Shown piece by piece: positions 21,471 through 59,675 of a DNA stretch of 64,000 nucleotides; the stretch's first letter is position 1; each line of letters opens with the position of its first letter. The notes beneath the pieces are model-generated. The model was not told the origin of the DNA, did not search any database, and worked only from the letters and a program-made list of their open reading frames with translations. Made by a program: the position numbers and the translations under genes. The DNA comes from Salinivenus iranica (GTDB lineage: Bacteria > Bacteroidota > Rhodothermia > Rhodothermales > Salinibacteraceae), in contig NCRB01000008.1 in assembly GCA_002894665.1 (NCBI GenBank), forward strand, positions 1 through 64,000, in the 5' to 3' direction.

Positions 21471-22304
21471 CTAATAGCTTTCCGAGTCATCGGGAAAGCG
21501 GCGGCTCCGCACGTCGTCCACGTACTCTTCAACCGCGTCGGTGATGTGCTCATCGAGGCGGGCGTACCGACGAACAAACCGGGGCTCGAAGTCCGTGGAG
21601 AGACCCAGCGCGTCATGTGACACGAGCACCTGCCCGTCCGTGGCCGCGCCGGCCCCGATGCCAATGGTAGGAATTGAAATCGCTTCGGAGACCTCTTTGG
21701 CCAAGGCGGCGGGGATTTTCTCCAGCACAAGGGCAAAGCAGCCGGCCGCCTCTAACCGTTCAGCGTCGCGGCGCAATTGGTCGGCCTCCGCCTCTTCCTG
21801 CGCCCGTACCTGATAGGTGCCGTAGTTGTAAATGCTCTGCGGCGTGAGGCCGAGATGGCCCATGACCGGCACACCCGCCGTCACAATGCGCTCGACGGTT
21901 TCCGCTACGGGCTCGCCCCCCTCCAGCTTCACGGCGTGGGCCCCCGTCTCCTTCATGATGCGAATCGCCGAGCGCAGCCCCTCCTTGGGCCCCTCCTGAT
22001 ACGACCCAAAGGGCAGATCCACCACGACCAGGGCCCGGTCGCTGCCCCGCACCACACACTGCGCGTGGTACACCATCTGGTCGAGCGTCATGGGAAGGGT
22101 CGTCTCGTGCCCCGCCATCACGTTGGCCGCTGAATCCCCCACTAGCAGAACATCCACGCCCGCACGATCGAGGAGACGGGCGGACGTGTAATCGTACGCC
22201 GTGAGTACCGCGATCGGCACGTCGGCCTCCCGCATTTCCTGAACGGTTTTGGTCGTGACGCGCGATACGTCGGCAGGGCCGGGAGGAGAGGAGCCAGAGC
22301 TCAT
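21471..22304 (-). CDS. panB: 3-methyl-2-oxobutanoate hydroxymethyltransferase
   Basis: A 277-residue TIM-barrel enzyme that transfers a hydroxymethyl group from methylenetetrahydrofolate to ketoisovalerate, the first committed step to pantothenate. Family motifs include [53 protein letters not shown]-type [20 protein letters not shown] and [10 protein letters not shown]. The metal ligands are Asp residues in DVLLVGDS and Glu in KLEGG. It is preceded by a terminator-like hairpin after the second Skp gene and is the first of a panB-surE-yjbQ run. Confidence 0.96.
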
Positions 22305-22575: not shown

Positions 22576-23175
22576 CTACTGTCCTCCGCCGCCCGCCGGG
22601 GGAGTATTCGTAGGCTGCTGTACGGACGGCGAGGGCTCGCCCGGCGCCTGATCCAGGTTAATGCCCAGCTCTTCCGCGACGTCCTGAGTGATATCCACAA
22701 CCGAGTCACTGTCCTGATTGACGTAGAGCAACGCCTGCGTTCGCATCACCACGTCGAGGTTCCGGGCCGCCGAGATACTGTCGATCGCGCCCTGCAGATC
22801 CTCCAGTAGCGGCTGCATCAGTTCCCGCTCGCGCTGCCGAAGCTGCTGCTGACGCTGCTGGGAGGAGCGCTGCAGCTTGGCCTGCATCTGCTGAAGCTCC
22901 TGCTCACGCCGGGTCTGGGCCGAATCCGACAGCAGCGACTGCTGTTGCTGAAACTGCTGTACCTTCTTCTGGAAGGCCTGGCGCTGCTGCTGCAACTGCT
23001 GCTGCTGCTCCTTGGCCTCCTGCTGCAGTTGCTGCTGCACATCCTGCATCCCCGGCATATTCGCCAGAATGGCCTCCTGGTTGGTGTAGCCAATGCGCTG
23101 GCCGTGCGCCGCGGGGGCCAATACGAGGGCGGACAGTGCAAGCAGCGCGGTAAAGATTTGTAGGCGTTTAAACAT
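22576..23175 (-). CDS. OmpH/Skp-family periplasmic chaperone (second copy)
   Basis: A 199-residue exported protein. The signal peptide is MFKRLQIFTALLALSALVLAPAAHG, cut before QRIGYTNQEAILANMPG, the canonical Skp N-terminal strand. The central arms are an extreme Gln-rich coiled coil (about residues 45-135). The C-terminus returns to the fold (ISAARNLDVVMRTQALLYV, VVDITQDV) and ends in a Pro/Gly-rich tail. Skp trimers hold unfolded outer-membrane proteins for BamA. It is the last of the bamA-skp-skp set, 83 bases after its paralogue. Gln content is far above that of its paralogue. Confidence 0.92.
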   Translation of the reverse strand: MFKRLQIFTALLALSALVLAPAAHGQRIGYTNQEAILANMPGMQDVQQQLQQEAKEQQQQLQQQRQAFQKKVQQFQQQQSLLSDSAQTRREQELQQMQAKLQRSSQQRQQQLRQRERELMQPLLEDLQGAIDSISAARNLDVVMRTQALLYVNQDSDSVVDITQDVAEELGINLDQAPGEPSPSVQQPTNTPPAGGGGQ

Positions 23176-23258
23176 GGTTGTGGGTGTCTTCTCAGAAAAA
23201 TGGTGAATGCCGATGACGAAATGGCCCCTGAGGGGGCAGCGGTCGACTCAGCAGCAGG

Positions 23259-23837
23259 CTACTCCCCTGCCCCCGACTGATCAACATTAATGCCAAGCTC
23301 ACGGAGGACCTGATCGCTCAGGTCGTGCTCATCCCGGGCAAAAAGGAAAAGGGTGTCTCCTTTCCGGTCGAGAACGTAGTCGTAGCCCGCCTCCGTCGCC
23401 ACACTCTCCGCGGCGGACAGGACGCGCTCCTGAATGGGTCGCATGAGTTCTTGCTGGCGAGTGTAAAGCCGGCCGTCCGGACCGAAGTACTGATGCCGAA
23501 GCTGCTCCACTTTCTTGCGGGCCTGCTGAATCGCCTCCCGCTTTCGCTGGCGCTCCTGATCCGTGTAGAGCACCTCCCGCGCCTCAAACTCCTCCTCGAG
23601 GGTTTCCACGCGTTCCTGCTGACTCTGAATTTCCTCGCGCCAGCGCTGCTCCAACTGATCGAGCTTCTGCTGCACGGAGGTGTACTCCGGCAACTGGTTG
23701 AGGATGTACTCCGTGTCGACGTAGCCGATGCGCTGTTGGGCCCGCCCCTCGGAGGCCGTCGCCAGCAGTCCCCCAATTACCACCGCGACCAAGGCGGCGT
23801 GTCTCCACGACACACACCGAAAAACCCAGGAGTTCAT
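23259..23837 (-). CDS. OmpH/Skp-family periplasmic chaperone (first copy)
   Basis: A 192-residue exported chaperone. MNSWVFRCVSWRHAALVAVVIGG is the signal peptide; mature QQRIGYVDTEYILNQLPEY is the Skp start strand. A charged coiled coil follows (about 40-120, rich in Glu, Arg and Gln), then VATEAGYDYVLDRKGDTLFLF. Start ATG 23837 was preferred to a GTG three codons upstream. It begins 63 bases after bamA, the standard neighbour in Bacteroidetes-type genomes, and is followed by a second, more Gln-rich copy. Confidence 0.92.
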   Translation of the reverse strand: MNSWVFRCVSWRHAALVAVVIGGLLATASEGRAQQRIGYVDTEYILNQLPEYTSVQQKLDQLEQRWREEIQSQQERVETLEEEFEAREVLYTDQERQRKREAIQQARKKVEQLRHQYFGPDGRLYTRQQELMRPIQERVLSAAESVATEAGYDYVLDRKGDTLFLFARDEHDLSDQVLRELGINVDQSGAGE

Positions 23838-23900
23838 GCGAGCCACGATTCAGAGAGGTCCATGGAGTGTGCGCAACGGACAAGCATCTTCTGCCGGGGG

Positions 23901-26423
23901 CTACCGACCACCACCGCCGCCCTGTCCCAGCGAGAACTGGAAGGTCCAGCCCGGCATTCCGTCTCCCGACTGAAGCGGTTCGTAGCGGTCGAAGTTGTAC
24001 CCGTAGTTGAACTCAATCATCCCGACGATGGGCAGGAAGAGCTTCACGCCGACGCCGGCGGATCGATACAGGTTCGAGGGGTTGTAGGACTGGAAGCTGT
24101 CCCAGGCGCCCGCCGCGTCGAAGAAGACGTACGGCCGGGCCTGGAGCTGCTGCGACTCCACGGCCTTCCATCGAATCTCCGACGTGTACTTGTTGAGCAC
24201 CCGACCGCCCTGGGGCTGCAAGGAGCCGCCGCGTCGCACCTTCGGGCCGATGACTCCCCGCGGGTACCCCCGCATGTAAATCGGCTCCGTACCGAAGTTG
24301 CGCCCCTGATAGTCGAACGCCGTGCCTCCGACCTCAAACCGCTCGAAGCGAACCGGGTCGCCCGTGATCGAGCCAATGTAGCCGAACTCCGTGCCCATCC
24401 CCACGGAGAAGTTTTCGCCGAGCGGGACGTTCCAGGACGAATTCAACTTCCACTTGTGGTACTGCACAAACTCGCCAACCGGGGGGGCCACCTCTACCGA
24501 CAGCTCCACGTTCGACCCCGCCCGCGGGAATCTCGGATTGTCCAGGGAGTTGCGTACAAGAGACTGCTTGATGGTCACCGACTGATTGCGCCCCGAAGGA
24601 ATGCTTCGGAAAAGCCCCACGTTCTGGCGAGTGCCGCTCTCCGAAGTTGTGAAGCCCTGGTTGTTGTAGAGCTGGTATCCCACCGACAGTCCCGCCTGGA
24701 ATTTGTCGTCCGGCCAATTGAGTCGCTGACGGACAAAGAGGTTGCCCGAGAAGTTCTGGAAACTTCCCCCGCTCACGCTCTCCCCTCCGTAAAAGCTGCG
24801 CGTGTACTTCGAGTACGAGATCGATCCGCCGACCGGAGTCGGGCGCCCGCGGAACCAGGGCTCGGTAAAGGAAAGCGAGTAGTTCTGATAGAAGGTGCCG
24901 TTCGTCCGGACGTTTAAGGACAGCTTCTGGCCGTCCCCGGAGGGAAGCGGACGCCAGGCACTGCCGTTAAACAGGTTCTGCGCCGAGAAATTGTTGAACG
25001 TAAAGCCTAGTTGCAGAACCAGTCCGAACTGCCCGAAGGTGCCGGAGAGCTGAAGCTGATCGCTCCCCACCTCCTTCACGCTGTAAGTGAGATCGGCTTC
25101 CTTCTCCTCCTGGTCGACACTTACATCAGGCCCCCCCTGGAGCGACTGCTTGCTGAAGTAGCTGAGCTGGCTGAGGCGCCGAATCGACTCCTGAATGGCA
25201 CTCCGACTGAATCGCTCGCCGGGGACCGTGTACAATTCCCGACGGATGACATAGTCCTTCGTCTTGTTGTTGCCCGTGATGGAGATGTCCCCGAACGTGT
25301 ACACGTCTCCTTCCCGTACGTCAAACGTGATGTCGAGGGAGTCGTCGCCCACCACACGCACGGTCGGCTGCACGTCGGCCCGCATGTATCCGCGGTCCAT
25401 ATACATGCCGAGCACGTCGGTGCCCTGCCGATTGCCATAGAGGTTTTCGTCGAGGGCCTTTCCATTGTACGGCTCCCCTTCCTGGAGCCCCAGCTGCTGC
25501 GTTAGCGCCTGGTCGGGATAGACCGTGTTGCCCTCCCAGTCCAGGTTGCGGATGTAGTAGCGATCTCCTTCCCGCACCTCCACGTCAATTGCGAGCCCCT
25601 CGTCTCCAATGTAGTACGTCGAGTCGCGAACAATTTGGGCGTCGTAGTATCCCCGCTCCCGGTAGAAATCTACGACGCGGTCTAGGTCCTCCTCGTAGAG
25701 GGTGCGATCGAACTTTTCCCCCTTCCAGAATCGCCACCATCGATTTTCGCGGGTTTCCTCCATGGCCCCGCGGAGGTCTCCGTCGTCGAACTGTTCGTTG
25801 CCCTGAAAGCGAATCCGCTCCACCTCAATCTCCTGGTCGCGGTTCACCTTGAAGGTAAGACGGACCTGCCCTGCGTCGTTCGTCTGGCGGTCCACCTCCA
25901 CCGAGGTCCGGAGGTATCCCTTGTCCGAATAAAAGTCGCGGATGATTTGCTTCGTCCGTTCCACCTCCGAGGGGCGGGCCGCCTGCCCCTGCACCAGCGG
26001 AATCTGTTCGCGCAGATCGTCCTCGTGGCGCCCCCGAATGCCCTCAAGCCGGTAGCTCAGAAGAATCGGGGACGAGGTTACCTCGATGACGAGGTCCACC
26101 GCCTCCGCGCTCCCGCTCCCCTGGCGTCGGATGGCCACGTCGGAAAACCGGCCGGCCTCATACACCGACCGGATCGCCTCCGCAATGGCATCTCCCGCGG
26201 GGAGCGTGACGCGCTGCCCGGTCGACAGCCCGCTGGACTGGATCACGAACTGCTTCATGCGATCATCCTCCACCCCCTCCACCTCAATGCTCCGAATCTG
26301 ATACTGAGGCGCTTGGGTGGCCGCTCCGCCTCCCCCCATCCCCGACGGGGTCTGTGCCTGCACCACTCCCACCGTGCATCCAAGAAGAAGACCGAGAACT
26401 GTAACCAAAAGACGCGAACGCAT
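23901..26423 (-). CDS. bamA: Outer-membrane assembly protein BamA
   Basis: An 839-residue outer-membrane insertase, longer than E. coli BamA by a few tens of residues. Signal peptide MRSRLLVTVLGLLLGCTVGVVQA fixes the start at 26423. Five POTRA domains span about residues 35-445; typical starts are YQIRSIEVEGVEDD, IEVERIRFQGNEQF, YYIRNLDWEGNTVY and YTFGDISITGNNKT. A 16-strand barrel follows, with the conserved loop YMRGYPRGVIGPK in the VRGF position. It ends NYGYNFDRYEP then a last strand WTFQFSLGQG and a Gly-rich tail. It lies in the dxr-rseP-uppS-bamA-skp-skp order. Confidence 0.96.
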   Translation of the reverse strand: MRSRLLVTVLGLLLGCTVGVVQAQTPSGMGGGGAATQAPQYQIRSIEVEGVEDDRMKQFVIQSSGLSTGQRVTLPAGDAIAEAIRSVYEAGRFSDVAIRRQGSGSAEAVDLVIEVTSSPILLSYRLEGIRGRHEDDLREQIPLVQGQAARPSEVERTKQIIRDFYSDKGYLRTSVEVDRQTNDAGQVRLTFKVNRDQEIEVERIRFQGNEQFDDGDLRGAMEETRENRWWRFWKGEKFDRTLYEEDLDRVVDFYRERGYYDAQIVRDSTYYIGDEGLAIDVEVREGDRYYIRNLDWEGNTVYPDQALTQQLGLQEGEPYNGKALDENLYGNRQGTDVLGMYMDRGYMRADVQPTVRVVGDDSLDITFDVREGDVYTFGDISITGNNKTKDYVIRRELYTVPGERFSRSAIQESIRRLSQLSYFSKQSLQGGPDVSVDQEEKEADLTYSVKEVGSDQLQLSGTFGQFGLVLQLGFTFNNFSAQNLFNGSAWRPLPSGDGQKLSLNVRTNGTFYQNYSLSFTEPWFRGRPTPVGGSISYSKYTRSFYGGESVSGGSFQNFSGNLFVRQRLNWPDDKFQAGLSVGYQLYNNQGFTTSESGTRQNVGLFRSIPSGRNQSVTIKQSLVRNSLDNPRFPRAGSNVELSVEVAPPVGEFVQYHKWKLNSSWNVPLGENFSVGMGTEFGYIGSITGDPVRFERFEVGGTAFDYQGRNFGTEPIYMRGYPRGVIGPKVRRGGSLQPQGGRVLNKYTSEIRWKAVESQQLQARPYVFFDAAGAWDSFQSYNPSNLYRSAGVGVKLFLPIVGMIEFNYGYNFDRYEPLQSGDGMPGWTFQFSLGQGGGGGR

Positions 26424-26644
26424 GCCGCTGAGCAACTCGTCAATAGAAGGCGAGCACGCTTTTCCGTACCAAAAAACGTGCAACCGGGGGCCAAACCAGC
26501 GGTTTCGCCCCCATTACATCTATGCTTTTGTAAAACGGAGCTTCCCCGAGAATTATTCTCTCCTCTCCCTCTCTTCTCCGGCGACCCGTCGTGAAATTTC
26601 GGGAAGACCCTCTCCCCTAAGTAGAGGACAACCGATGCTGCGCG

Positions 26645-48455: not shown

Positions 48456-48485
48456 TTGAGTAGAGTGAGAATCCGTGCTTATAAT
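48456..48485 (+). promoter_or_regulatory. Sigma70-like promoter for the glycogen-synthase-like/DUF4270 unit
   Basis: TTGAGT at 48456-48461 and a perfect TATAAT at 48480-48485 are separated by 18 bases in the only markedly AT-rich stretch of the 283-base gap. The next gene begins 110 bases downstream. It is a sequence match only. Bacteroidetes often use a different consensus, but a similar TTGAGC-n18-TACATT pair precedes enolase. Confidence 0.45.
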
Positions 48486-48594
48486 AGTCTATTTTCGTGC
48501 CCCGCGACGGGTGCGGTCTTTCGGCCCTCAGTGTCATTCCTGAAGGGTTTCGTATTGTCGACACCGCCCCAACCAACAGAGCTCGTCCAGTCGC

Positions 48595-49362
48595 ATGGCC
48601 CAGTCGAAGCGTGTCTTGTTCGTCGCCGGTGAGGTTACCCCCTTTGCTGAAACGACGTCTATCGCCTCCCTTGCCCGCGCCCTCCCCGAACAGCTTCAGA
48701 ACGCCGGCGACTACGAAGCACGGGTCATGATGCCCTGTTACGGCACCATCAACGAGCGAACGCACAATCTGCACGAGGTCATTCGACTATCGGGCACGGA
48801 GGTGCCGATGGGGGACCACACCGAAACGGTCACGGTCAAGGTGGCCTCGGTCCCCGAGGTTCGGCTCCAGGTCTATTTCATGGACCACGAGGACTATTTC
48901 GAGGATGGGGGGCTCCGCCCGGACGACTCGCAGTCTCCGGAAGAGGTCGTCCGACGAGCGCTGTTCTTCAATCGCGCCGCGCTGGAAACCATTCGCAAAC
49001 TCCGCTGGGGCCCCGACCTGGTCCACGCCTTCGGCTGGATGGGCGGCCTCATTCCTCTCCTGCTGTCCAGCGATTACGCCGACGCCGAGCACCTGAGCCC
49101 TTCGAAGGTCCTCTTCACGCCCGACAACGACGACCCTGGGGCCGCCATTACCGATGACCTTGCGGATGGATTGGGTTTTTCGCTAAACGGCACGGACGCC
49201 TCCACCTTCTCCGACGCTGGCCTCAATCAGGCCGACGGGTCGATTTACCCCCCCGGTCGTCCCCCCACCAATGGGACCGTTCAGTTTGCCGCCGATACGG
49301 CCGAGCACGGCGAACAGCTGGCCGGCCTTTATGATCAAATGCTAAATGAAGTCCCGGCGTAG
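48595..49362 (+). CDS. Truncated, probably non-catalytic GT5 glycogen/starch-synthase-like protein
   Basis: A 255-residue protein equal to only the N-terminal Rossmann half of glycogen synthase. The start RVLFVAGEVTPFAETTSIASLARALP aligns with the GT5 start E.aPfaKtGGLaDV..aLP. The ADP-glucose contact Lys and the following Gly-Gly are replaced: E19, then T-T-S. PDLVHAFGWMGGLIPLLL matches the later P-D-x-x-H-x-H-W segment with His replaced by Phe-Gly. The C-terminal nucleotide-sugar domain is absent. It probably does not make glycogen; a binding or regulatory role is inferred. It leads the unit with the DUF4270-like lipoprotein, an arrangement I recall from Bacteroidetes. Confidence 0.82.
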   Translation: MAQSKRVLFVAGEVTPFAETTSIASLARALPEQLQNAGDYEARVMMPCYGTINERTHNLHEVIRLSGTEVPMGDHTETVTVKVASVPEVRLQVYFMDHEDYFEDGGLRPDDSQSPEEVVRRALFFNRAALETIRKLRWGPDLVHAFGWMGGLIPLLLSSDYADAEHLSPSKVLFTPDNDDPGAAITDDLADGLGFSLNGTDASTFSDAGLNQADGSIYPPGRPPTNGTVQFAADTAEHGEQLAGLYDQMLNEVPA

Positions 49363-49580
49363 GGACACGAGAAGCGGAAACACCCCTTCTCAGCGGTTCA
49401 TTCCACGCACGGGTTTCGTTGATCAGGTCCCTGGGACTCAGCTTGGCGGTCATCCAGGCGGTGCCGGGGGCCGCCCCCCATCGGAGAACCGAATTGTCCT
49501 GCGGGGAGCGATCACCGCGTAGGTGCTGCCGGTTCACCGGGAGGCTTCACCGGATTTCGCCACTGTCTACCGTGTCTTGT

Positions 49581-50882
49581 ATGACGTACTTCCGCCTGTC
49601 GGCCGCGCTGGGAGGCTTTCTGTTACTCGCGACGCTGGTCTCCTGCTCCGACCCCTCCGGCGTCGGCCTCGGCGTGGGAGAGGATCCACTGGAAGGGGGC
49701 GATCCGACCGTCGAAACCGTTCTGCCCGACACGATCTACACGGAAGCCTCCGCGCCCCGGACGGGACTGAGCGGTGCCCAACAGACCTGGCGGTTCCTTG
49801 CGGGGGCCGTCTCTCTCGGCGGCACAAGCAATCCGTATGGGCGGGTGCAGGCCAACGGATACTTCGACGTCCAGGCCCCAGACAACATCCCCACCTCAAT
49901 CGCCCTCGCTAACCCGGACTCCCTCGACGCAACCCTACGCCTTCAGACAAACTATGTACACGGGGACACCTCCTCGGAGGTCTCCTTTCGCCTGCATGAC
50001 CTCGCACAGGAGGCAGAGATGAACGAGGCGACAGCCGATACCACGTTCCCCGTCGGGGCGGAGGTGGCGACGTACACCCGGTCGCCGACGGATTCGTCGG
50101 TTGCTCTCTCGCTTCCGAGCTCCTGGGTGCAGAACAACGCCGATCTTCTTCGGGACACAACCCGGGTGGGGCCCGACTTCCACGGCTTTCGGCTTTCGGC
50201 CCCCGACGCAGAGGCCGCGGTCGGCTTCGAACACGCTACCGCCCGGCTCGAGCTCTCCCTCGCCGGCAGCGACGAGAGCGTCACCTACGCCGTGGAGAAG
50301 ACCTTCTCGAACGTCCGTCGCTCAACCCCCGCCTCTCCCCCCGAAGACCGCCTGCTCCTCCAGGACGGCGTGGGCGATCAGCTTGTGGTCGAATGGGATG
50401 AGGCTCGACTGGACTCTCTCCGGGGCTCGCCCCTGAATCGGGCGTCCATCATTATTCCGACCGATCCGGACACCGCGTCGCTTGGCGAATCGTTTGTGCG
50501 CCCCACCCCCGACTATCGGGTGACGGCCACGCGGGAGACCAGCGCCCCCTCCTGCGGGGCCCTTCAAACGTTCGAGGTCACGTCGGAAGGCGACGTGTGC
50601 GGCCTCCCCCTGCCCACGGACACCCCGGCCGACGCCGACATTCGGGTGGACGAGCGGTCCTCGTTCACCATCTTCGAGCGCCTGCTGGTCGATACGGAAG
50701 GGCCGCTCCCGTCGACCCTGTCCGAATATCGGGCCCAGGTCGTAGACCGCCCCGGCACGCCCCAAAATGCCAGTGAGACCGTCCAGATCGGTCTGCCAAG
50801 CACCCTCACCACCCTGATTCCCCGCCCCCGCCCGGACTCGTCGATGGCGCCCCGACTTGAACTCACCGTGACGCCTCTGTAG
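49581..50882 (+). CDS. DUF4270-like outer-membrane lipoprotein
   Basis: A 433-residue lipoprotein. MTYFRLSAALGGFLLLATLVSC gives a lipobox ending at the acylated Cys, followed by DPSGVGLGVGEDPLEGGDPTVET, which resembles the DUF4270 N-terminus (C..d...iG.d). The rest is beta-rich: VQANGYFDVQ, EVSFRLHDLAQEAE, ARLELSLAGSDE and LNRASIIIPTDP. The length is normal for the family. The frame stays open 162 bases earlier, but only ATG 49581 gives the signal peptide. It is the second gene of a four-gene envelope unit. Function unknown. Confidence 0.82.
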   Translation: MTYFRLSAALGGFLLLATLVSCSDPSGVGLGVGEDPLEGGDPTVETVLPDTIYTEASAPRTGLSGAQQTWRFLAGAVSLGGTSNPYGRVQANGYFDVQAPDNIPTSIALANPDSLDATLRLQTNYVHGDTSSEVSFRLHDLAQEAEMNEATADTTFPVGAEVATYTRSPTDSSVALSLPSSWVQNNADLLRDTTRVGPDFHGFRLSAPDAEAAVGFEHATARLELSLAGSDESVTYAVEKTFSNVRRSTPASPPEDRLLLQDGVGDQLVVEWDEARLDSLRGSPLNRASIIIPTDPDTASLGESFVRPTPDYRVTATRETSAPSCGALQTFEVTSEGDVCGLPLPTDTPADADIRVDERSSFTIFERLLVDTEGPLPSTLSEYRAQVVDRPGTPQNASETVQIGLPSTLTTLIPRPRPDSSMAPRLELTVTPL

Positions 50883-50936
50883 GGACGCTCCTGCTGTGTG
50901 ATGTCGTACTCTGTTTTCTCTCTTCCCCCCAGTTCC

Positions 50937-52277
50937 ATGCGCGCCCCCTTTCTCCGCGCCGTCCGCGGAGGACTCCTCGCCGTCGTTCTCTGTGCCGCAG
51001 CGGGCATGATGTCTGCCCCGGCCCTTGCACAGTCCAATGGAGACGGAACGATCTACTCCCGCTACGGGCTCGGCAGCCTGGAGACGTTCTCGTCCTCGCA
51101 GAGCGCGGCCCTGGGAGGCGGAGCCTACGCCCTGCGCTCGTTGAACTATACGGCCATGGCGAACCCCGCACTGTGGAGCGACCAAGTGTTTACTCGCCTC
51201 AGCGCAGGCGGGTCTTACGAGCGCATTCAGGCCACGAGAGACGGCAATCAAACCAGTCATCTTTCCTCCGGATCGGTGGAGTCGGTCCAATTTAACTTCC
51301 CCCTGTATGAACGAGAGCTTGGGGTCGGCCTCTCCTTCCAGCCGTACTCGGTGACCAACTACCGAGCCCTGCGCACAAACGACGCCCCCTCGGGCGACCT
51401 CCCGGCCTACGAGGTGGACTACCAGGGCACAGGTGGACTGTACTCGTTCCGGGGCGGCCTGGGCTACAAAGTGAACGAAATCCTGCGGGTTGGGGCCAGC
51501 GTCGATGTCATCTTTGGCATCGTGGAAAGCCAGCGGCGAACGGAGTTCGAGGTGACGTCCACCTCCCTGCGCAACACCGTGGTCTCCGACGCCACCCGTC
51601 TCTCCGGCGTGTCGGGGACGCTGGGGGCCCACCTGTCCTTCGCCGACGTGTTTGCCGCTGAGGATGCCTTTTCGGTTGGGGGGGCCGTGGAGTTGCCGAC
51701 CACTCTTTCCGGTCGTCGCATCCGCACACTGGATGAGGATTTGGCCCGCGACACCCTCTCAAATGTGCAGGGGGACGCCTCTATCCCCTGGCGGGCCCGC
51801 CTGGGGGTCGCCTATCAGCCAAACGAGCGCTGGTCGTTTGTGCTCGATGGGGACTTCGAGCCGTGGAGCACCTTCAGTTCCAGCTTCAATTCCTCGTCCG
51901 AGGGCACGTTTGGACGGCAGTTTCCCGTAGGCGGCGACGGGAGCCTCACCGATCGCTGGCGCCTCTCCGCCGGGGCCGAGGTTGTGCCCGCCGGGGAAGG
52001 CGGCGGCCTGTCCGGGTTCTTCGGCCGTACGGGCTACCGGTTCGGCGCGTACACCGAACAGCTCTACGTACAGCCCAATAACAACAACGTCCAGGTATAC
52101 GCCGCCACCGGTGGATTCAGCCTGCCGACCTCACTTCCTGGCACGCGAATTGATCTCAACCTGAGAGCGGGCGTCCGAGAGCCCCGGGGCGACTCCTTCG
52201 TCCGGGACGTGTTCTACGGCGTCTCCGTACACGTGAACTTCGGGGAGCGCTGGTTCCAGCAGCGCAAGCTCCGGTAG
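50937..52277 (+). CDS. Predicted outer-membrane beta-barrel protein
   Basis: A 446-residue exported protein: MRAPFLRAVRGGLLAVVLCAAAG..ALAQ signal, then NGDGTIYSRYGLGSLETFSSSQSAALGGGAYALRSLNYTAMANPALW, a start typical of PorV/FadL-like Bacteroidetes barrels. About a dozen amphipathic strands follow (GGLYSFRGGLGYKV, LRVGASVDVIFG, RWSFVLDGDFEPW, WRLSAGAEVVP) and it ends FYGVSVHVNFGERWFQQRKLR. The frame opens 36 bases earlier (ATG 50901), but ATG 50937 sits right at the signal peptide. It follows the DUF4270-like gene by 54 bases. Substrate or partner unknown. Confidence 0.8.
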   Translation: MRAPFLRAVRGGLLAVVLCAAAGMMSAPALAQSNGDGTIYSRYGLGSLETFSSSQSAALGGGAYALRSLNYTAMANPALWSDQVFTRLSAGGSYERIQATRDGNQTSHLSSGSVESVQFNFPLYERELGVGLSFQPYSVTNYRALRTNDAPSGDLPAYEVDYQGTGGLYSFRGGLGYKVNEILRVGASVDVIFGIVESQRRTEFEVTSTSLRNTVVSDATRLSGVSGTLGAHLSFADVFAAEDAFSVGGAVELPTTLSGRRIRTLDEDLARDTLSNVQGDASIPWRARLGVAYQPNERWSFVLDGDFEPWSTFSSSFNSSSEGTFGRQFPVGGDGSLTDRWRLSAGAEVVPAGEGGGLSGFFGRTGYRFGAYTEQLYVQPNNNNVQVYAATGGFSLPTSLPGTRIDLNLRAGVREPRGDSFVRDVFYGVSVHVNFGERWFQQRKLR

Positions 52278-52366
52278 CCCCGATCGTGCAATAGGCTGGT
52301 CTGATCGGCGAAACTCCGCCCTGAGCGTCCAGTCTAACACCAAGGCCTGTTCAATATAAGAGACAG

Positions 52367-53731
52367 ATGAAATATCCAGACATGCCCCTCCTCAATCGCG
52401 CACCGACTGCAGCTGTCTTCTCTCTTGGGGCGATGCTGTTGGCCCTCGGGTCGTGGGTCTCAACTGCGCAGGCCCAGGACTCCCAGCCGAGCCAGCAGCA
52501 GAAGGCGATGCACTACAGCCTGTACTACGAGAACTTCAAGAACGACGACTTCCAGAGTGCCAAGAGCGATCTCCTCTGGATCGTCGAGAACGCGCCGGGC
52601 TTTCCGAAGGGAGACGACCGGAATTTCGAGCGCCAGTTTGAGCTGTACGAGGGCCTTGCCCAGCAGGCCTCAAGCGACGACAAGCGAATGGCTTACCTCG
52701 ACACGGCCGCCACGGTGCTCTCCTCGGCTCCCCAGAAGATGGAGGAGCAGGGCCTGAGCTACGAGCCGTTCGAGTGGGAAATCCTGAAGGGACGCTTTCT
52801 GCAGGAGTACGAGGACACCCTTCCGGATCTGTCGTCCACGTCGCTTGAGGATCCGGTGACGCATTACCGAAAGGCCTTCGATCTGGCCCCGACGGAGATC
52901 AATCCGTATTACATCCGGCAGATTATTCGGTCGTACGTTGAGAACGGCGAACAGCAGAAGGCCCTCTCCTTCGCCAACACGGTGGAGCAGAAACGGGGCG
53001 ACGACGAGGAGGTCGCCAAGGTGCTCTCGTCGGTCCGCGACGACATTTTTGGCAAGAACCCCCAGGCGCAGGTCACGTACCTCGAGGAGCAGTTCGAGGC
53101 GAACCCTGACAGCCTAGCGCTGATGCAGGAGCTGTTCAATGCGTACGTCAAACAGGGAAACACCAGCAATGCCGCGGAGCTGGCCCCGAAGCTCATGGAA
53201 CAGGACGTTCCCGCCGAGACGATTCGCGAAATCGCACAGATGCGGCTTGAGGACGGACGCCCGGAGGCCGCCATTCAGGCGTACGAGAAGATGGCCTCCG
53301 ACACCGACGCCTCGCTCACAGCCGAGGACTACTTCCGCCGCGGGCAAGCGTACCAGCAGATGGACCAGTTCTCCAAAGCCCGCGCTCAGTTCCGCCGCGC
53401 CATTGAGGCGCAGTCGGACTACGGCCAGGCCTACATTGCCATCGGCGACCTCTACACGAGTGCGGTCAGCGATTGCAGCGGAAGCGAGCTCGGTCGCAGC
53501 GACAAGGCCGTGTACTGGGTGGCCGTCGACAAGTATCAGAAGGCAAAACAGGTGGACTCGTCCGTTCAATCTACGGCGAACAGCAAGATCAAGACGTACC
53601 GCAAGTACTTCCCGACCCAGGAGGACATCTTCTACCGCGACGACTGGGAAGAGGGGAGCAGCTTCACGATCGATTACGGCTGCTACTCCTGGATTGGCGA
53701 AAGCACGACGGTGCGCCGCGCCTCGTCGTAG
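52367..53731 (+). CDS. Exported TPR-repeat protein, last gene of the envelope unit
   Basis: A 454-residue periplasmic protein. The signal peptide runs to about residue 37 (AVFSLGAMLLALGSWVSTAQAQ). The mature part is helical with TPR-type repeats: MHYSLYYENFKNDDFQSAKSDLLWIVENAP, AQMRLEDGRPEAAIQAYEKMA, YFRRGQAYQQMDQFSKARAQFRRAIEAQSDYGQAYIAIGDLY. The C-terminus has two cysteines (SDCSGSELG and DYGCYSWIG) outside the repeats and the motif YRKYFPTQEDIFYRDDWEEG. No enzymatic domain. It follows the barrel gene by 89 bases and precedes a strong terminator, so it closes the unit. Confidence 0.85.
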   Translation: MKYPDMPLLNRAPTAAVFSLGAMLLALGSWVSTAQAQDSQPSQQQKAMHYSLYYENFKNDDFQSAKSDLLWIVENAPGFPKGDDRNFERQFELYEGLAQQASSDDKRMAYLDTAATVLSSAPQKMEEQGLSYEPFEWEILKGRFLQEYEDTLPDLSSTSLEDPVTHYRKAFDLAPTEINPYYIRQIIRSYVENGEQQKALSFANTVEQKRGDDEEVAKVLSSVRDDIFGKNPQAQVTYLEEQFEANPDSLALMQELFNAYVKQGNTSNAAELAPKLMEQDVPAETIREIAQMRLEDGRPEAAIQAYEKMASDTDASLTAEDYFRRGQAYQQMDQFSKARAQFRRAIEAQSDYGQAYIAIGDLYTSAVSDCSGSELGRSDKAVYWVAVDKYQKAKQVDSSVQSTANSKIKTYRKYFPTQEDIFYRDDWEEGSSFTIDYGCYSWIGESTTVRRASS

Positions 53732-53759
53732 TGCCCGATCGCACGATTCGATTCCTATT

Positions 53760-53800
53760 CGGCCGGTGGGTCTTCCGACCCATCGGCCGTTTTTGTTTTT
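53760..53800 (+). terminator. Strong intrinsic terminator closing the envelope unit
   Basis: A 13-bp stem (53760-53772 with 53777-53789, one G-T pair) around a TTCC loop is followed by TTTTTGTTTTT. It begins 29 bases past the TPR stop codon. Confidence 0.9.
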
Positions 53801-55603: not shown

Positions 55604-56575
55604 ATGCCCGAATACGCTGTTGGCCTTGACCTTGGTGGCACGAACCTGAAGGCCGGCCTCGTCCACCGCGAGGAGGGGCTGGTGGAGACGGCCCGCCGCC
55701 CGACGGAGGCCGACAAAGGCCCCGAACACGTTCTCGATCAGATGGCGGCCGTCGCGTCGGACCTGATGGCACCGATCGGCGAAGAAAACGTCCTGGGGAT
55801 TGGGATAGGCTCGCCCGGCGCAATCAATTGGGAGCGAACGACGGTGAGCCACCCGCCGAACCTCCCCGGCTGGACCAGCATCAACCTGCAAGAGACCCTG
55901 CGCGACCGCCTCGGATCCCTGGTTGTCGTCGTCGAGAACGATGCGAACGCAGCGGGCCTGGGATCGGCCCACTACGGCGCGGGCGCCGCGTTCGACTCGT
56001 TTCTGATGGTGACCCTGGGCACCGGCGTGGGCGGCGCGATCATCTACCGGAACCAGATTTTTCGGGGAAGCACGGGCGGAGCCGGCGAAATTGGCCACAT
56101 GACCATCGACTACGAGGGCCCCTACGCCAACACGGGCGTTGCGGGGGCGATTGAAGGTTACCTCGGACAGTCGTTCCTCTCCGACCATGCCCGCGACCGC
56201 CTGGTCAATTACCCCGACAGTGCGGTCCACGGGCTGGTGGAGGGCGACCTCGACCGGGTGACCCCTCGGGTGTTGTCCGAGGCCGCCGAACAGGGCGACG
56301 ACGCGGCCCGAAGCATCCTGGCCTGGGCTGGCCACAAGCTCGGCTGTGTGCTCGGGGCCGCGGTCAACCTGCTCGATATTCGGACCATCATCGTCGGCGG
56401 AGGCGTTTCCGGAGCCGGGGACTTTCTCCTAGCGCCTGCCCGCGACACCCTCCCGCGGTACGTCACCCCGGGCCTGCGCGACGACCTCACCCTTCGTCGC
56501 GAGAAGCGGGGCAATGATGTTGGGATGCTGGGGGCGGCGCGGCTCGTGTTTGAAGGGGCAGACGCCCACGTGTAG
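55604..56575 (+). CDS. ROK-family sugar kinase without the zinc-site cysteines
   Basis: A 323-residue ROK-fold protein, most like glucokinases. YAVGLDLGGTNLKAGLV is the phosphate loop; GIGIGSPGAIN, VENDANAAGLGSAHYGAG (with the catalytic Asp) and MVTLGTGVGGAII are intact. The conserved His is H165 in GEIGHMTID. The following C-x-C-G-x-x-G-C-x-E zinc motif reads A175-N-T177-G178-V-A-G181-A182-I-E184: framework Gly and Glu remain but all three cysteines are lost. VGGGVSGAGDFLLAP is near the end. It probably phosphorylates a sugar, since the catalytic Asp is present, with an altered zinc-free site. It follows the FtsB-like gene by 48 bases. Confidence 0.9.
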   Translation: MPEYAVGLDLGGTNLKAGLVHREEGLVETARRPTEADKGPEHVLDQMAAVASDLMAPIGEENVLGIGIGSPGAINWERTTVSHPPNLPGWTSINLQETLRDRLGSLVVVVENDANAAGLGSAHYGAGAAFDSFLMVTLGTGVGGAIIYRNQIFRGSTGGAGEIGHMTIDYEGPYANTGVAGAIEGYLGQSFLSDHARDRLVNYPDSAVHGLVEGDLDRVTPRVLSEAAEQGDDAARSILAWAGHKLGCVLGAAVNLLDIRTIIVGGGVSGAGDFLLAPARDTLPRYVTPGLRDDLTLRREKRGNDVGMLGAARLVFEGADAHV

Positions 56576-56654
56576 CGTCCCTCTCCTCCGGCAACGCCCA
56601 TCTGGGCCCGGACCAGGACTGAACTCGTCGTGCTGTCGGTCGAATGCTCTCCCA

Positions 56655-59600
56655 ATGCTTCCGCGTTGGCTTCTGATTGGGATCGGGGGTGCCGCCCTCA
56701 TGGTGCTGGGGACCGCCCCCGCCGGGGCCCAGGAGCGTCCCGCCGACACAACCCGTGTGGATTCCGCTCGCGTCGATACGACCCGACAGGTCCCCTCTGA
56801 CTCCGTCCAGCAGCGCACGGACCGGGCGGGCCCGCCGACCGCCACGCCGCAACGCACCTCTCCGCGCGGGGCCGGGCCGGGAGGCCCCGGGGGCGCCGGC
56901 TCGTCGGACGCCGTTACCTTTTCGGCCCGGGACTCTCTCGTGATCGTCACGGACAGCGCGACCGGCGACCGCGGCTCCCTCCACGGCGAGGCCTCGATGT
57001 CTCACCAGGGCGCCACTCTTCGCGCCCGAACCATCGAGATGAACTTTAAGAGCGGCACGCTCGACGCCTCCGGCCCCCCCTCCGACACGGCCCGCAATTC
57101 CCGTCCGGTCTTCGAGCAAAGCGGCGGGAGCGGCAGAAGTGGCGGGTCGGGCGCCAGCCCGCTGGGCGGCGGCGGTGGCGGATCGGGTGGGGGACAATCG
57201 TTCACCGGCGAAACCCTCTCGTACAACATCAACACGCGCCGCGGCCGGGTCGTGTCCGCCCGGACGCAGCGGCAGGACGGGTACATCCAGGGCGGGGCCG
57301 TCAAGGTGTTCGAGGACAGCACCCTGTTCGTGCAGGGCGGGCTCTACACCACTTGCAACTGTGCCCCCGGAGAGACCCCGTCGTACTCGCTCCGCTCCAG
57401 CGAAATGAAGGTGCAGGGCAAGTGGGTATACACCGGCCCCATCCAGCTCTTTCTTTTCAACGTGCCCACGCCCCTGTGGCTGCCCTTTGGGTTTCTCCCC
57501 AATACGCAGGGACGCCGCAGCGGCCCCCTCCCGCCGAATTACGGACAGGACCGCCGCGGACTCTTTTTGAAAGACTGGGGCTGGTACTTCGCCCTGAACG
57601 ACTACACCGACCTCACCATCCGGGCCGGCGTGTGGTCGCAGGGGAGCTTCGAGGTGCGGCCGCGCTTCCGATACAACAAGCGATACAACTACAGCGGCGA
57701 CCTCTCGCTCACCTACCGACGCGAGCGCGTCGGCGAGTCCGAGGACCCAAACTTTACGGACAGTCACCAGGGCGAACTCGACTGGTCCCACGACCAAACC
57801 CTCTCCCCCACGGCCAGCCTCAACAGCAACGTCAACCTCGCCACCTCGTCGGACTTCGCCCAGCGGAACAGCGACAACTACGACGACGCGGTGCGGCAGG
57901 AGGTCTCCTCTTCTCTCAACTACCGGAAGCGGTGGCCTCAGGGGGGACGGCAATTCAACCTCAGCGCCAACCAGCAGCAGCAATTTCAAAGCGGGGAGGT
58001 AAGCCTCACGGCACCCGATCTCAGCTTCTCCCAGAACCGGTTCAAGCCCTTCGATCGCGACCGGGCCGTGGGAGAGCCCCGCTGGTACGAAAAGATTACC
58101 ACCTCCTACAACTTCGATCTCACGAACAGTTTCGACTTCACGCCCCGAGACCCGCAGCAGCTCCGCCAGAATCGAACCCCGGCGGACTCCTCCCTGGCCG
58201 ACTCCCTGGAGCAGACCAGCATCGACTGGTACGAAGCCCTCTTCAACCGACAGAAATACCAGCTCGCCACTGGCGACGACGAACTCTTCGACTTCGAGGC
58301 CACCCACCGGATTCCGCTGAGCGCGACGTTTCGGATCGACCGCTTCAACATGTCGATCTCCCCAAACGCGAACTACACGTCGGACTGGTACATCAACACG
58401 GTCCGCGTCGTCGATACGAGCGATGCGGGGGAGCCCTTCGAAACCGTAGAGGAGACCACGCCGGGCTTCTACGCTCGGCACAACTTCAACACCTCGCTGT
58501 CCGCCAGTGCCGAGGCATACGGGACCTTTCCCGTGGCGCTTGGCCCGTTCGAGGGACTCCGGCACCGGCTCTCCCCCTCCCTGTCCGCCAACTATCAGCC
58601 GAACTTCAACCGGCCGTTCTGGGGACGGACCCGCCCGCTGCGCACGCCCGATGGGACCCCTGTGGTCGACCCGGAGACGGGCGAGGTTCGTCGCTACGAC
58701 ATCCTAACCGGCTCGCTGGTGCGAAGCAGTACCGAGCAGCGGAGCCTCAATTTTTCGCTCCGCAACGTGTTTGAGACCAAACGCGTCCGCGTCGACTCCA
58801 CGGGCGAGCGCGAGACCGACCGCATCACCCTGCTGAACCTGGACCTTCAGGGGCTGAACTACAACTTCGCCGCGGACTCCTTTCGGGTCAGCGATAACAT
58901 CCGGCTCAACGCCCGCACGACGGTCGAGCGCTTCGACATTACGCTAAACTCGACGTTTTCCCCGTACGCCTTACGCCCTGTGGGGACCACCGACGGAAGC
59001 CTCCGCTTCCGGCGCGTCGACCGGTACATGATCGTCGAAAGCCCCTGGACCCCGGCCCGGCTGACCAACTTTCAGCTCGGGGTTAGCGGAGACTTTCAGA
59101 GTGGAGGCGGGGGCGGACGAACGGCTCGCTCCGCGGGGCTCAATCAAGGAGGTAACCGACGCGGCGGAGCCACGCAGGGCCGCCCGCAAGCCCCCTCCGG
59201 CGACACCGAGCGCCGCACGCAGGTGCCCTCCTCCATCGAGGACCTGTCGGCCCTGGACCTCCCCTGGTCCCTGAGCTTTGATTTCAACTACCGGCTGAGT
59301 AAGCCCCAAAAGGAGGTCACCAACCGGACCGCCACGCTCGGCACGCAGTTTAGCCTGGGGCTCACCTCGAAGTGGCGCATCCAAGGCCGGAGCGGCTACG
59401 ACTTCGTGGAGGGCGAGCTCGCCACCACCCGACTGTCGACGAGCCGCGTCGTGGGCAACTGCGACTGCTGGGTGATGTCCTTCAGCTGGGTGCCGTTCGG
59501 GCGCTTCCAGTCGTACAGCTTCAACCTGCAGGTCCGGAGCGGACAGCTCTCCCAGCTTCTGCAACTCCAGCTCCCGAACGCCGGGGGGGAAGGACGCCTC

Positions 59601-59675
59601 GGCGGCTTCGGCGACCGGCTGCGCCAGACGGCCGGGAGCGTGGCGGGCGGACAGGGCGGTGGGCGCTTCCCGTGA
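56655..59675 (+). CDS. LptD-like outer-membrane lipopolysaccharide assembly protein
   Basis: A 1006-residue exported protein: MLPRWLLIGIGGAALMVLG..AGAQ signal. Residues about 90-260 are an OstA/LptD jellyroll (DSLVIVTDSATGDRGSLHGEASMSHQGATLRARTIEMNF, GRVVSARTQRQDGYIQGGAVKVFED) interrupted by a Gly/Ser-rich insertion near 150-185. The rest is a large beta-barrel (about 300-1000). The only cysteines in the protein are C234 and C236 (TTCNCAPGE) and C936 and C938 (GNCDCW), recalling the long-range disulfides of LptD. It would insert lipopolysaccharide in the outer membrane together with the LptF/G protein encoded nearby. Confidence 0.85.
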   Translation: MLPRWLLIGIGGAALMVLGTAPAGAQERPADTTRVDSARVDTTRQVPSDSVQQRTDRAGPPTATPQRTSPRGAGPGGPGGAGSSDAVTFSARDSLVIVTDSATGDRGSLHGEASMSHQGATLRARTIEMNFKSGTLDASGPPSDTARNSRPVFEQSGGSGRSGGSGASPLGGGGGGSGGGQSFTGETLSYNINTRRGRVVSARTQRQDGYIQGGAVKVFEDSTLFVQGGLYTTCNCAPGETPSYSLRSSEMKVQGKWVYTGPIQLFLFNVPTPLWLPFGFLPNTQGRRSGPLPPNYGQDRRGLFLKDWGWYFALNDYTDLTIRAGVWSQGSFEVRPRFRYNKRYNYSGDLSLTYRRERVGESEDPNFTDSHQGELDWSHDQTLSPTASLNSNVNLATSSDFAQRNSDNYDDAVRQEVSSSLNYRKRWPQGGRQFNLSANQQQQFQSGEVSLTAPDLSFSQNRFKPFDRDRAVGEPRWYEKITTSYNFDLTNSFDFTPRDPQQLRQNRTPADSSLADSLEQTSIDWYEALFNRQKYQLATGDDELFDFEATHRIPLSATFRIDRFNMSISPNANYTSDWYINTVRVVDTSDAGEPFETVEETTPGFYARHNFNTSLSASAEAYGTFPVALGPFEGLRHRLSPSLSANYQPNFNRPFWGRTRPLRTPDGTPVVDPETGEVRRYDILTGSLVRSSTEQRSLNFSLRNVFETKRVRVDSTGERETDRITLLNLDLQGLNYNFAADSFRVSDNIRLNARTTVERFDITLNSTFSPYALRPVGTTDGSLRFRRVDRYMIVESPWTPARLTNFQLGVSGDFQSGGGGGRTARSAGLNQGGNRRGGATQGRPQAPSGDTERRTQVPSSIEDLSALDLPWSLSFDFNYRLSKPQKEVTNRTATLGTQFSLGLTSKWRIQGRSGYDFVEGELATTRLSTSRVVGNCDCWVMSFSWVPFGRFQSYSFNLQVRSGQLSQLLQLQLPNAGGEGRLGGFGDRLRQTAGSVAGGQGGGRFP

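Follow-up and report, generated by a model that had tools for sequence, protein, structure and literature searches.

A catalytically degenerate glycogen-synthase-like half protein encoded with bamH and bamG in Salinivenus iranica and other Bacteroidota

We analyzed a window of 64,000 nucleotides from Salinivenus iranica (assembly GCA_002894665.1, contig NCRB01000008.1, positions 1 to 64,000 of the forward strand). Salinibacteraceae and Rhodothermales are among the nearest named relatives, in keeping with a Salinibacter-like genome of the Rhodothermia. Four plus-strand genes, spanning positions 48595 to 53731 and closed by a strong terminator, encode the N-terminal half of a GT5 glycosyltransferase, a lipoprotein, an outer-membrane barrel, and an exported tetratricopeptide (TPR) protein (Table 1). 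The original prediction, made from the sequence alone, had described this arrangement, and all of its genes and the terminator are present. It had also proposed a promoter-like sequence upstream of the genes (48456-48485), which is the sole such site in the region; since 0.6 are expected by chance, it provides no evidence. The GT5 half and bamH are separated by 218 bases and are likely cotranscribed, and this gap allows separate promoters for the two genes.

Table 1. Features of the four-gene unit and the position of bamA in the window
Feature	Coordinates	Strand	Evidence
GT5 half (P0001, 255 aa); no signal peptide, hence cytosolic	48595..49362	+	PF08323, 119 bits; catalytic positions changed
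bamH (433 aa), DUF4270-family lipoprotein at the cell surface, part of the extracellular canopy of BAM	49581..50882	+	Lipobox LVSC; PDB matches of the family profile
bamG (446 aa), FadL-like outer-membrane barrel of the BAM complex	~50937..52277	+	NF053685 and PDB chains
Exported TPR protein (454 aa), bamG-linked; has a signal peptide and conserved cysteines C370 and C439 but lacks a lipobox	52367..53731	+	TPR domains
Intrinsic terminator closing the four-gene unit	53760..53789	+	13 pairs, 10 of them G-C, then TTTTTGTTTT
bamA, core of the BAM machine, elsewhere in the window	23901..26483	-	TIGR03303, 371 bits, above cut-off

Two small Skp/OmpH-like genes and a panB-like gene, assigned by reading only, come after bamA (22576-23846, 21471-22304), and an LptD_2 protein (411.8 bits) is encoded downstream of the unit at 56514-59675, preceded by genes for enolase, a DivIC-like protein, and a ROK kinase.

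The barrel had been predicted as such and can now be named. It matched the NCBIfam model for BamG (NF053685) over positions 3-397 of 397 with 219.6 bits (E = 7e-65), a score below the curated cut-off of 250, as are the BamG scores in many other genomes of the window's class. It also matched the solved BamG chains (PDB 9hiv_F, E = 9e-19; 9n2d_B, "Bam G," E = 2.5e-11). Contact with BamA and a long N-terminal tail that threads the barrel are further marks of BamG. The lipoprotein had been called DUF4270-like. The window protein itself has no Pfam match, DUF4270 included, at an E threshold of 1, but an orthologue (L047) matches Pfam DUF4270 at 1e-42. In addition, the family profile (A2) matches BamH in solved structures, namely chain 9n2d_C ("Bam H," E = 2.7e-44) and the DUF4270 chains 9hjm_G (E = 9e-34) and 9his_G (E = 2e-10). 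The six residues after its lipobox cysteine are SDPSGV, with one acidic residue; for Bacteroides thetaiotaomicron lipoproteins, at least two acidic residues among these six have been reported as the rule. BamA and BamD are both present in the genome, BamD on another contig (C73). Judged by these sequence and profile matches, the lipoprotein and the barrel are almost certainly BamH and BamG, core subunits of the Bacteroidota-type BAM complex. The assembly that had been thought of undescribed purpose is thus a described one (PMC12611786, PMC12578637), and the model and PDB matches rule out a new outer-membrane complex.

In the published complexes (Nature 2025, PMC12611786; Nat Microbiol 2025, PMC12578637), the site where BamA folds its substrates is covered on the outside of the cell by a canopy of BamG and BamH, as demonstrated for Bacteroides, Porphyromonas, and Flavobacterium; by homology, the same role may be assumed in the window organism. 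BamG is essential, or apparently so, in these studies, and BamH is essential in Flavobacterium johnsoniae but dispensable in B. thetaiotaomicron (PMC12611786, PMC12578637). The window genes stand side by side, bamG directly after bamH, like those of the published BamG2/BamH2 pair. They differ from the published BAM genes in being adjacent within one likely operon that includes the GT5 half and the TPR protein.

Residues 6-186 of the GT5 half match positions 1-175 of the 239 positions of PF08323, and the protein scores 149.8 bits against PRK14098 (NF010698; cut-off 754). Its AlphaFold model is one complete domain (pLDDT 90.2, pTM 0.91), for which Foldseek returned starch and glycogen synthases as the best matches, starch synthase IV first (TMq 0.71, E = 4.7e-14). 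The half thus shares the N-terminal fold of GT5 starch/glycogen synthases (PF08323, PRK14098, TIGR02095 GlgA) and differs from them in two respects. As predicted, the C-terminal sugar-nucleotide domain is absent: the protein ends at 255 residues, its GT5 match stops at residue 186, and the model has a single domain. The catalytic motif is also lost, as had been noticed, K-T-G-G-L being replaced by E19-T-T-S-I; at the positions of the catalytic Asp and His, HDW has become FGW and T-[VI]-H-N has become TPDN. The positions of three catalytic residues of the N-terminal domain (K15, D137, and H161 of Escherichia coli GlgA) are all altered.

These changes extend to the relatives. A complete catalytic motif in most orthologues would have spoken against the original prediction, and KTGGL was found in none of the 37 aligned halves and none of the 80 named relatives. 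The D137 position is glycine in most halves and the H161 position is altered in most, whereas HDW is retained in some (L041, L043, and L044) and HN in one (L041), revealing that the loss is graded. Other residues of the half are invariant across the phylum. Judging from the model and from conservation, the fold is intact and under selection, and the protein is almost certainly a true GT5 remnant and a catalytically dead pseudoenzyme. Median identities to the window proteins were 38% (half), 25% (BamH), 36.5% (BamG), and 35.5% (TPR protein); since closer genomes supplied most of the values behind the last two medians, the fair comparison is that of the half with BamH, and by this measure the half is the slower evolving of the two. 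Our literature search found no described truncated glycogen synthase in Bacteroidetes and no GT5 pseudoenzyme associated with the outer membrane.

The original prediction had also suggested sugar or nucleotide sensing. Nucleotide sensing is weakened, since the half has neither the C-terminal domain that binds the sugar nucleotide nor the lysine that contacts its phosphate. One could also imagine a split enzyme, in which another gene encodes the C-terminal donor half and the two products act together in trans, the half corresponding to Alg14 and its partner to Alg13. Alg14-type halves have a complete stand-alone fold, and so does this one. Nevertheless, the donor-phosphate lysine and the catalytic Asp and His positions are lost on the half itself, and the C-terminal-domain matches listed for the window genome lie in ordinary proteins of 416-446 aa, with no orphan partner half among them, which makes a split enzyme extremely improbable.

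We compared gene order within the GTDB phylum Bacteroidota, where a search with P0001 revealed relatives in 197 of 198 genomes. Loci of the same class show the order GT5 half, bamH, bamG, TPR gene, except that the TPR gene is missing from both loci of family f3 and that contig L038 is uninformative. Loci of the Bacteroidia type have bamH after the half and usually glmS next, while panC lies upstream in divergent orientation; likewise, a half-length protein and then BamH are encoded in an uncultured relative from Bacteroides (L133). Among 80 named loci, bamH is next after the half in 69, and 3 more carry a divergent BamH, giving 72 of the 79 loci with room for a neighbor. Seven of the 79 have no adjacent bamH. 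The genes had been expected to stay together if the unit was real, and this linkage agrees with it.

The deeper-branching genomes have a full-length enzyme at the same place. In all 17 of those examined, which were picked by the position of bamG and not by GT5, a full-length GT5 gene lies upstream of bamH and bamG, with bamG directly after bamH, often with a GmhB-like HAD phosphatase gene between the GT5 gene and bamH and with the TPR gene after. The genomes in which BamG was not found all belong, as far as listed, to one family (f18), in which the full-length GT5 is kept. This family probably corresponds to Chlorobia; Chlorobiota were reported to lack both BamG and BamH (PMC12611786).

Several further neighbors recur. 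The phosphatase gene, of the heptose pathway, lies between the full-length GT5 and bamH in L063-L065, L218, L221-L224, L229, L231-L234, and L237. In Balneolia-type genomes (L043, L044, L123, and L167), glgB and malQ are immediately upstream of the half. In many Bacteroidia-type genomes (L201-L203, L206, L208, L211, L212, and L217), bamG comes after a gene of ~245 aa that resembles type III pantothenate kinase by reading, and a lipoprotein-like gene of ~190 aa is often next.

An alternative reading is that the half has an independent housekeeping role, e.g., in supplying coenzyme A or amino sugars, and that nothing but a shared promoter and slow rearrangement keeps it beside bamH. The common presence of panC and glmS in Bacteroidia is consistent with this, and, since BamG and BamH are both essential in F. 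johnsoniae (PMC12611786), rearrangement of their operon may be selected against. We found no literature on the panC/glmS association. The comparison between classes provides an internal control: the flanking genes change (DUF4175, glgB-malQ, and panC; eno and glmS), while the GT5-bamH pair persists. Moreover, an unrelated enzyme would not be expected to lose catalysis repeatedly at one locus. On balance, a mere relic of gene order is a doubtful explanation that still deserves weight.

Loss of catalytic motifs is indeed observed beyond the halves. In a tree of N-terminal domains from a smaller set, the halves cluster with the full-length GT5 proteins linked to bamH, apart from ordinary GlgA (support 95-100). 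In a larger set, support is weak (39) for a group that unites all bamH-linked proteins, but the clade of halves has a support of 85, and the nearest full-length relatives are recovered with 92-100. Most of the full-length proteins retain all motifs. Four of those beside bamH-bamG (L227, L228, L235, and L236) have lost several catalytic motifs and are apparently independent pseudoenzymes, two (L064 and L231) have an altered C-terminal EPCG motif, and one from the family in which BamG was not found (L062, f18) carries RTSALADF instead of KTGGLADV, with loss of the lysine. Because motifs are lost or altered in several full-length proteins, catalysis was probably lost more than once at the bamH-linked locus.

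The company of the half had been described as cell envelope and not glycogen. The exclusion of glycogen has to be qualified, since the half lies beside glgB and malQ in Balneolia-type genomes and its deeper relatives are full-length enzymes resembling starch/glycogen synthases. A separate full-length GT5 GlgA is present in 31 of the 40 genomes of the class and absent in 9, among them the window genome, and all 9 keep the half. This rules out that the half serves GT5 GlgA as its subunit or regulator. The window genome does encode GlgC, GlgB, and a GT4-type glycogen synthase (TIGR02149, 511.8 bits), the last adjoining glgC (L247:1844-3097, contig C110), so that glycogen is probably still made in this organism.

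Since glycogen may still be made, a glucan-binding role was kept as a possibility: the half could be a sensor of glucans or maltooligosaccharides that has kept the acceptor surface and reports on carbon storage, its link to bamH being incidental or regulatory. The retention of the acceptor domain alone, the glgB and malQ genes ahead of it in Balneolia-type loci, and the glycogen genes of the window genome are consistent with such a sensor. Set against them, the glgB/malQ neighbors are limited to one branch, the half is retained both with and without GT5 GlgA, and most halves have lost D137 and H161, two positions close to the acceptor/donor site. We therefore regard a glucan sensor as unlikely.

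Published data contain some hints on proteins that are putative orthologues of the half, based on locus numbering and annotation rather than on sequence. One study of F. johnsoniae employed as a native promoter that of fjoh_0824, a gene numbered beside bamH (fjoh_0823) (PMC12611786). In B. thetaiotaomicron, BT_4307, annotated as a putative glycogen synthase, is numbered next to BamH (BT_4306), just as the half adjoins bamH in the window; we found no literature on the essentiality of BT_4306. BT_4307 was taken as a sign of glycogen storage (PMC10797578), a reading that is not supported by the half proteins examined here. In both screens of another study, a photo-probe based on vitamin B12 also caught it (PMC8941943), as would be expected if the half bound cobamides. 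The same screens caught many likely bystanders, such as a porin, trigger factor, and aspartokinase (PMC8941943), and there was no Rfam riboswitch match near the gene of the half in the window or in three relatives. Control by a cobalamin riboswitch is accordingly not supported for these four loci, and a cobamide-binding protein is a highly unlikely identity for the half.

The last gene of the unit encodes, as predicted, an exported protein with TPR domains and a signal peptide. Its family profile had a confident match in 65 genomes, and in all 65 the gene adjoins bamG on the same strand. The protein has no lipobox and has an invariant pair of C-terminal cysteines (C370 and C439); its AlphaFold model (pLDDT 85) gave generic TPR matches only in a fold search. 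In several families, bamG has no TPR gene beside it or one too divergent to detect. No tetratricopeptide protein is mentioned in the main text of either BAM paper (PMC12611786, PMC12578637). BamD and other periplasmic TPR proteins resemble it in being built of TPRs and in residing in the envelope close to BAM. In contrast to BamD, it is not a lipoprotein, is longer, and has the conserved cysteine pair and a GCYSWIGESTTVR-like tail, and BamD is encoded elsewhere. It is a candidate accessory subunit of BAM, which would act in the periplasm and probably dock there onto the BamG/BamA/BamD assembly.

In the explanation that we favor, the locus comprises bamH and bamG together with two companion genes, whose products are absent from the subunits named in the two BAM papers. 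The half would be the acceptor domain of an ancestral full-length enzyme, similar to starch synthase and encoded beside bamH, that may have lost catalysis in several lineages and its donor domain in the lineage leading to Bacteroidia and Rhodothermia, while keeping a noncatalytic job. In the cytosol, it could bind a ligand or a partner and thereby tune the synthesis or the supply for export of BamH and BamG to envelope or carbohydrate status. Taken as a whole, a BAM operon led by a cytosolic pseudoenzyme with such a role in BamH/BamG supply seems to us moderately probable; the regulatory role, considered by itself, is a tentative proposal.

In its favor we counted the identity of the BAM genes, the dead enzyme with an intact fold, the linkage to bamH, the recurrent loss of motifs, the slow evolution, the retention without GlgA, and the use of the fjoh_0824 promoter. 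On the other side, the BamA pull-downs of two papers name no such protein among the copurifying subunits (PMC12611786, PMC12578637), and a cytosolic protein cannot contact BamH and BamG at the surface. The steadiness of panC (divergent) and glmS (after bamH) in Bacteroidia may mean that the link is not to BAM as such, and the loci where bamH is not adjacent and the 218-base gap also count against it.

The BamH/BamG part of this locus was known; what is new is the GT5 companion of bamH, which occurs across the phylum and has probably been inactivated repeatedly, together with the bamG-linked TPR protein. In its widest form, which we consider possible although the odds do not favor it, a starch/glycogen synthase gene would have been tied to the BAM canopy genes across the phylum, repeatedly stripped of catalysis, and cut to its N-terminal domain in the two main lineages, to become a dedicated cytosolic factor that controls outer-membrane protein assembly, with the TPR protein as a further periplasmic BAM component. 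Proteins of this half type give matches to models of glycogen synthase, and a name of this kind underlies the argument of at least one paper (BT_4307, PMC10797578). The first descriptions of the Bacteroidota BAM complex date from 2025, and the two companions are candidates for missing factors: the TPR protein, perhaps overlooked since some lineages have no TPR gene, and the GT5 half, a concrete candidate that is kept directly before bamH throughout the phylum, is more conserved than BamH itself, and has probably passed from enzyme to pseudoenzyme repeatedly.
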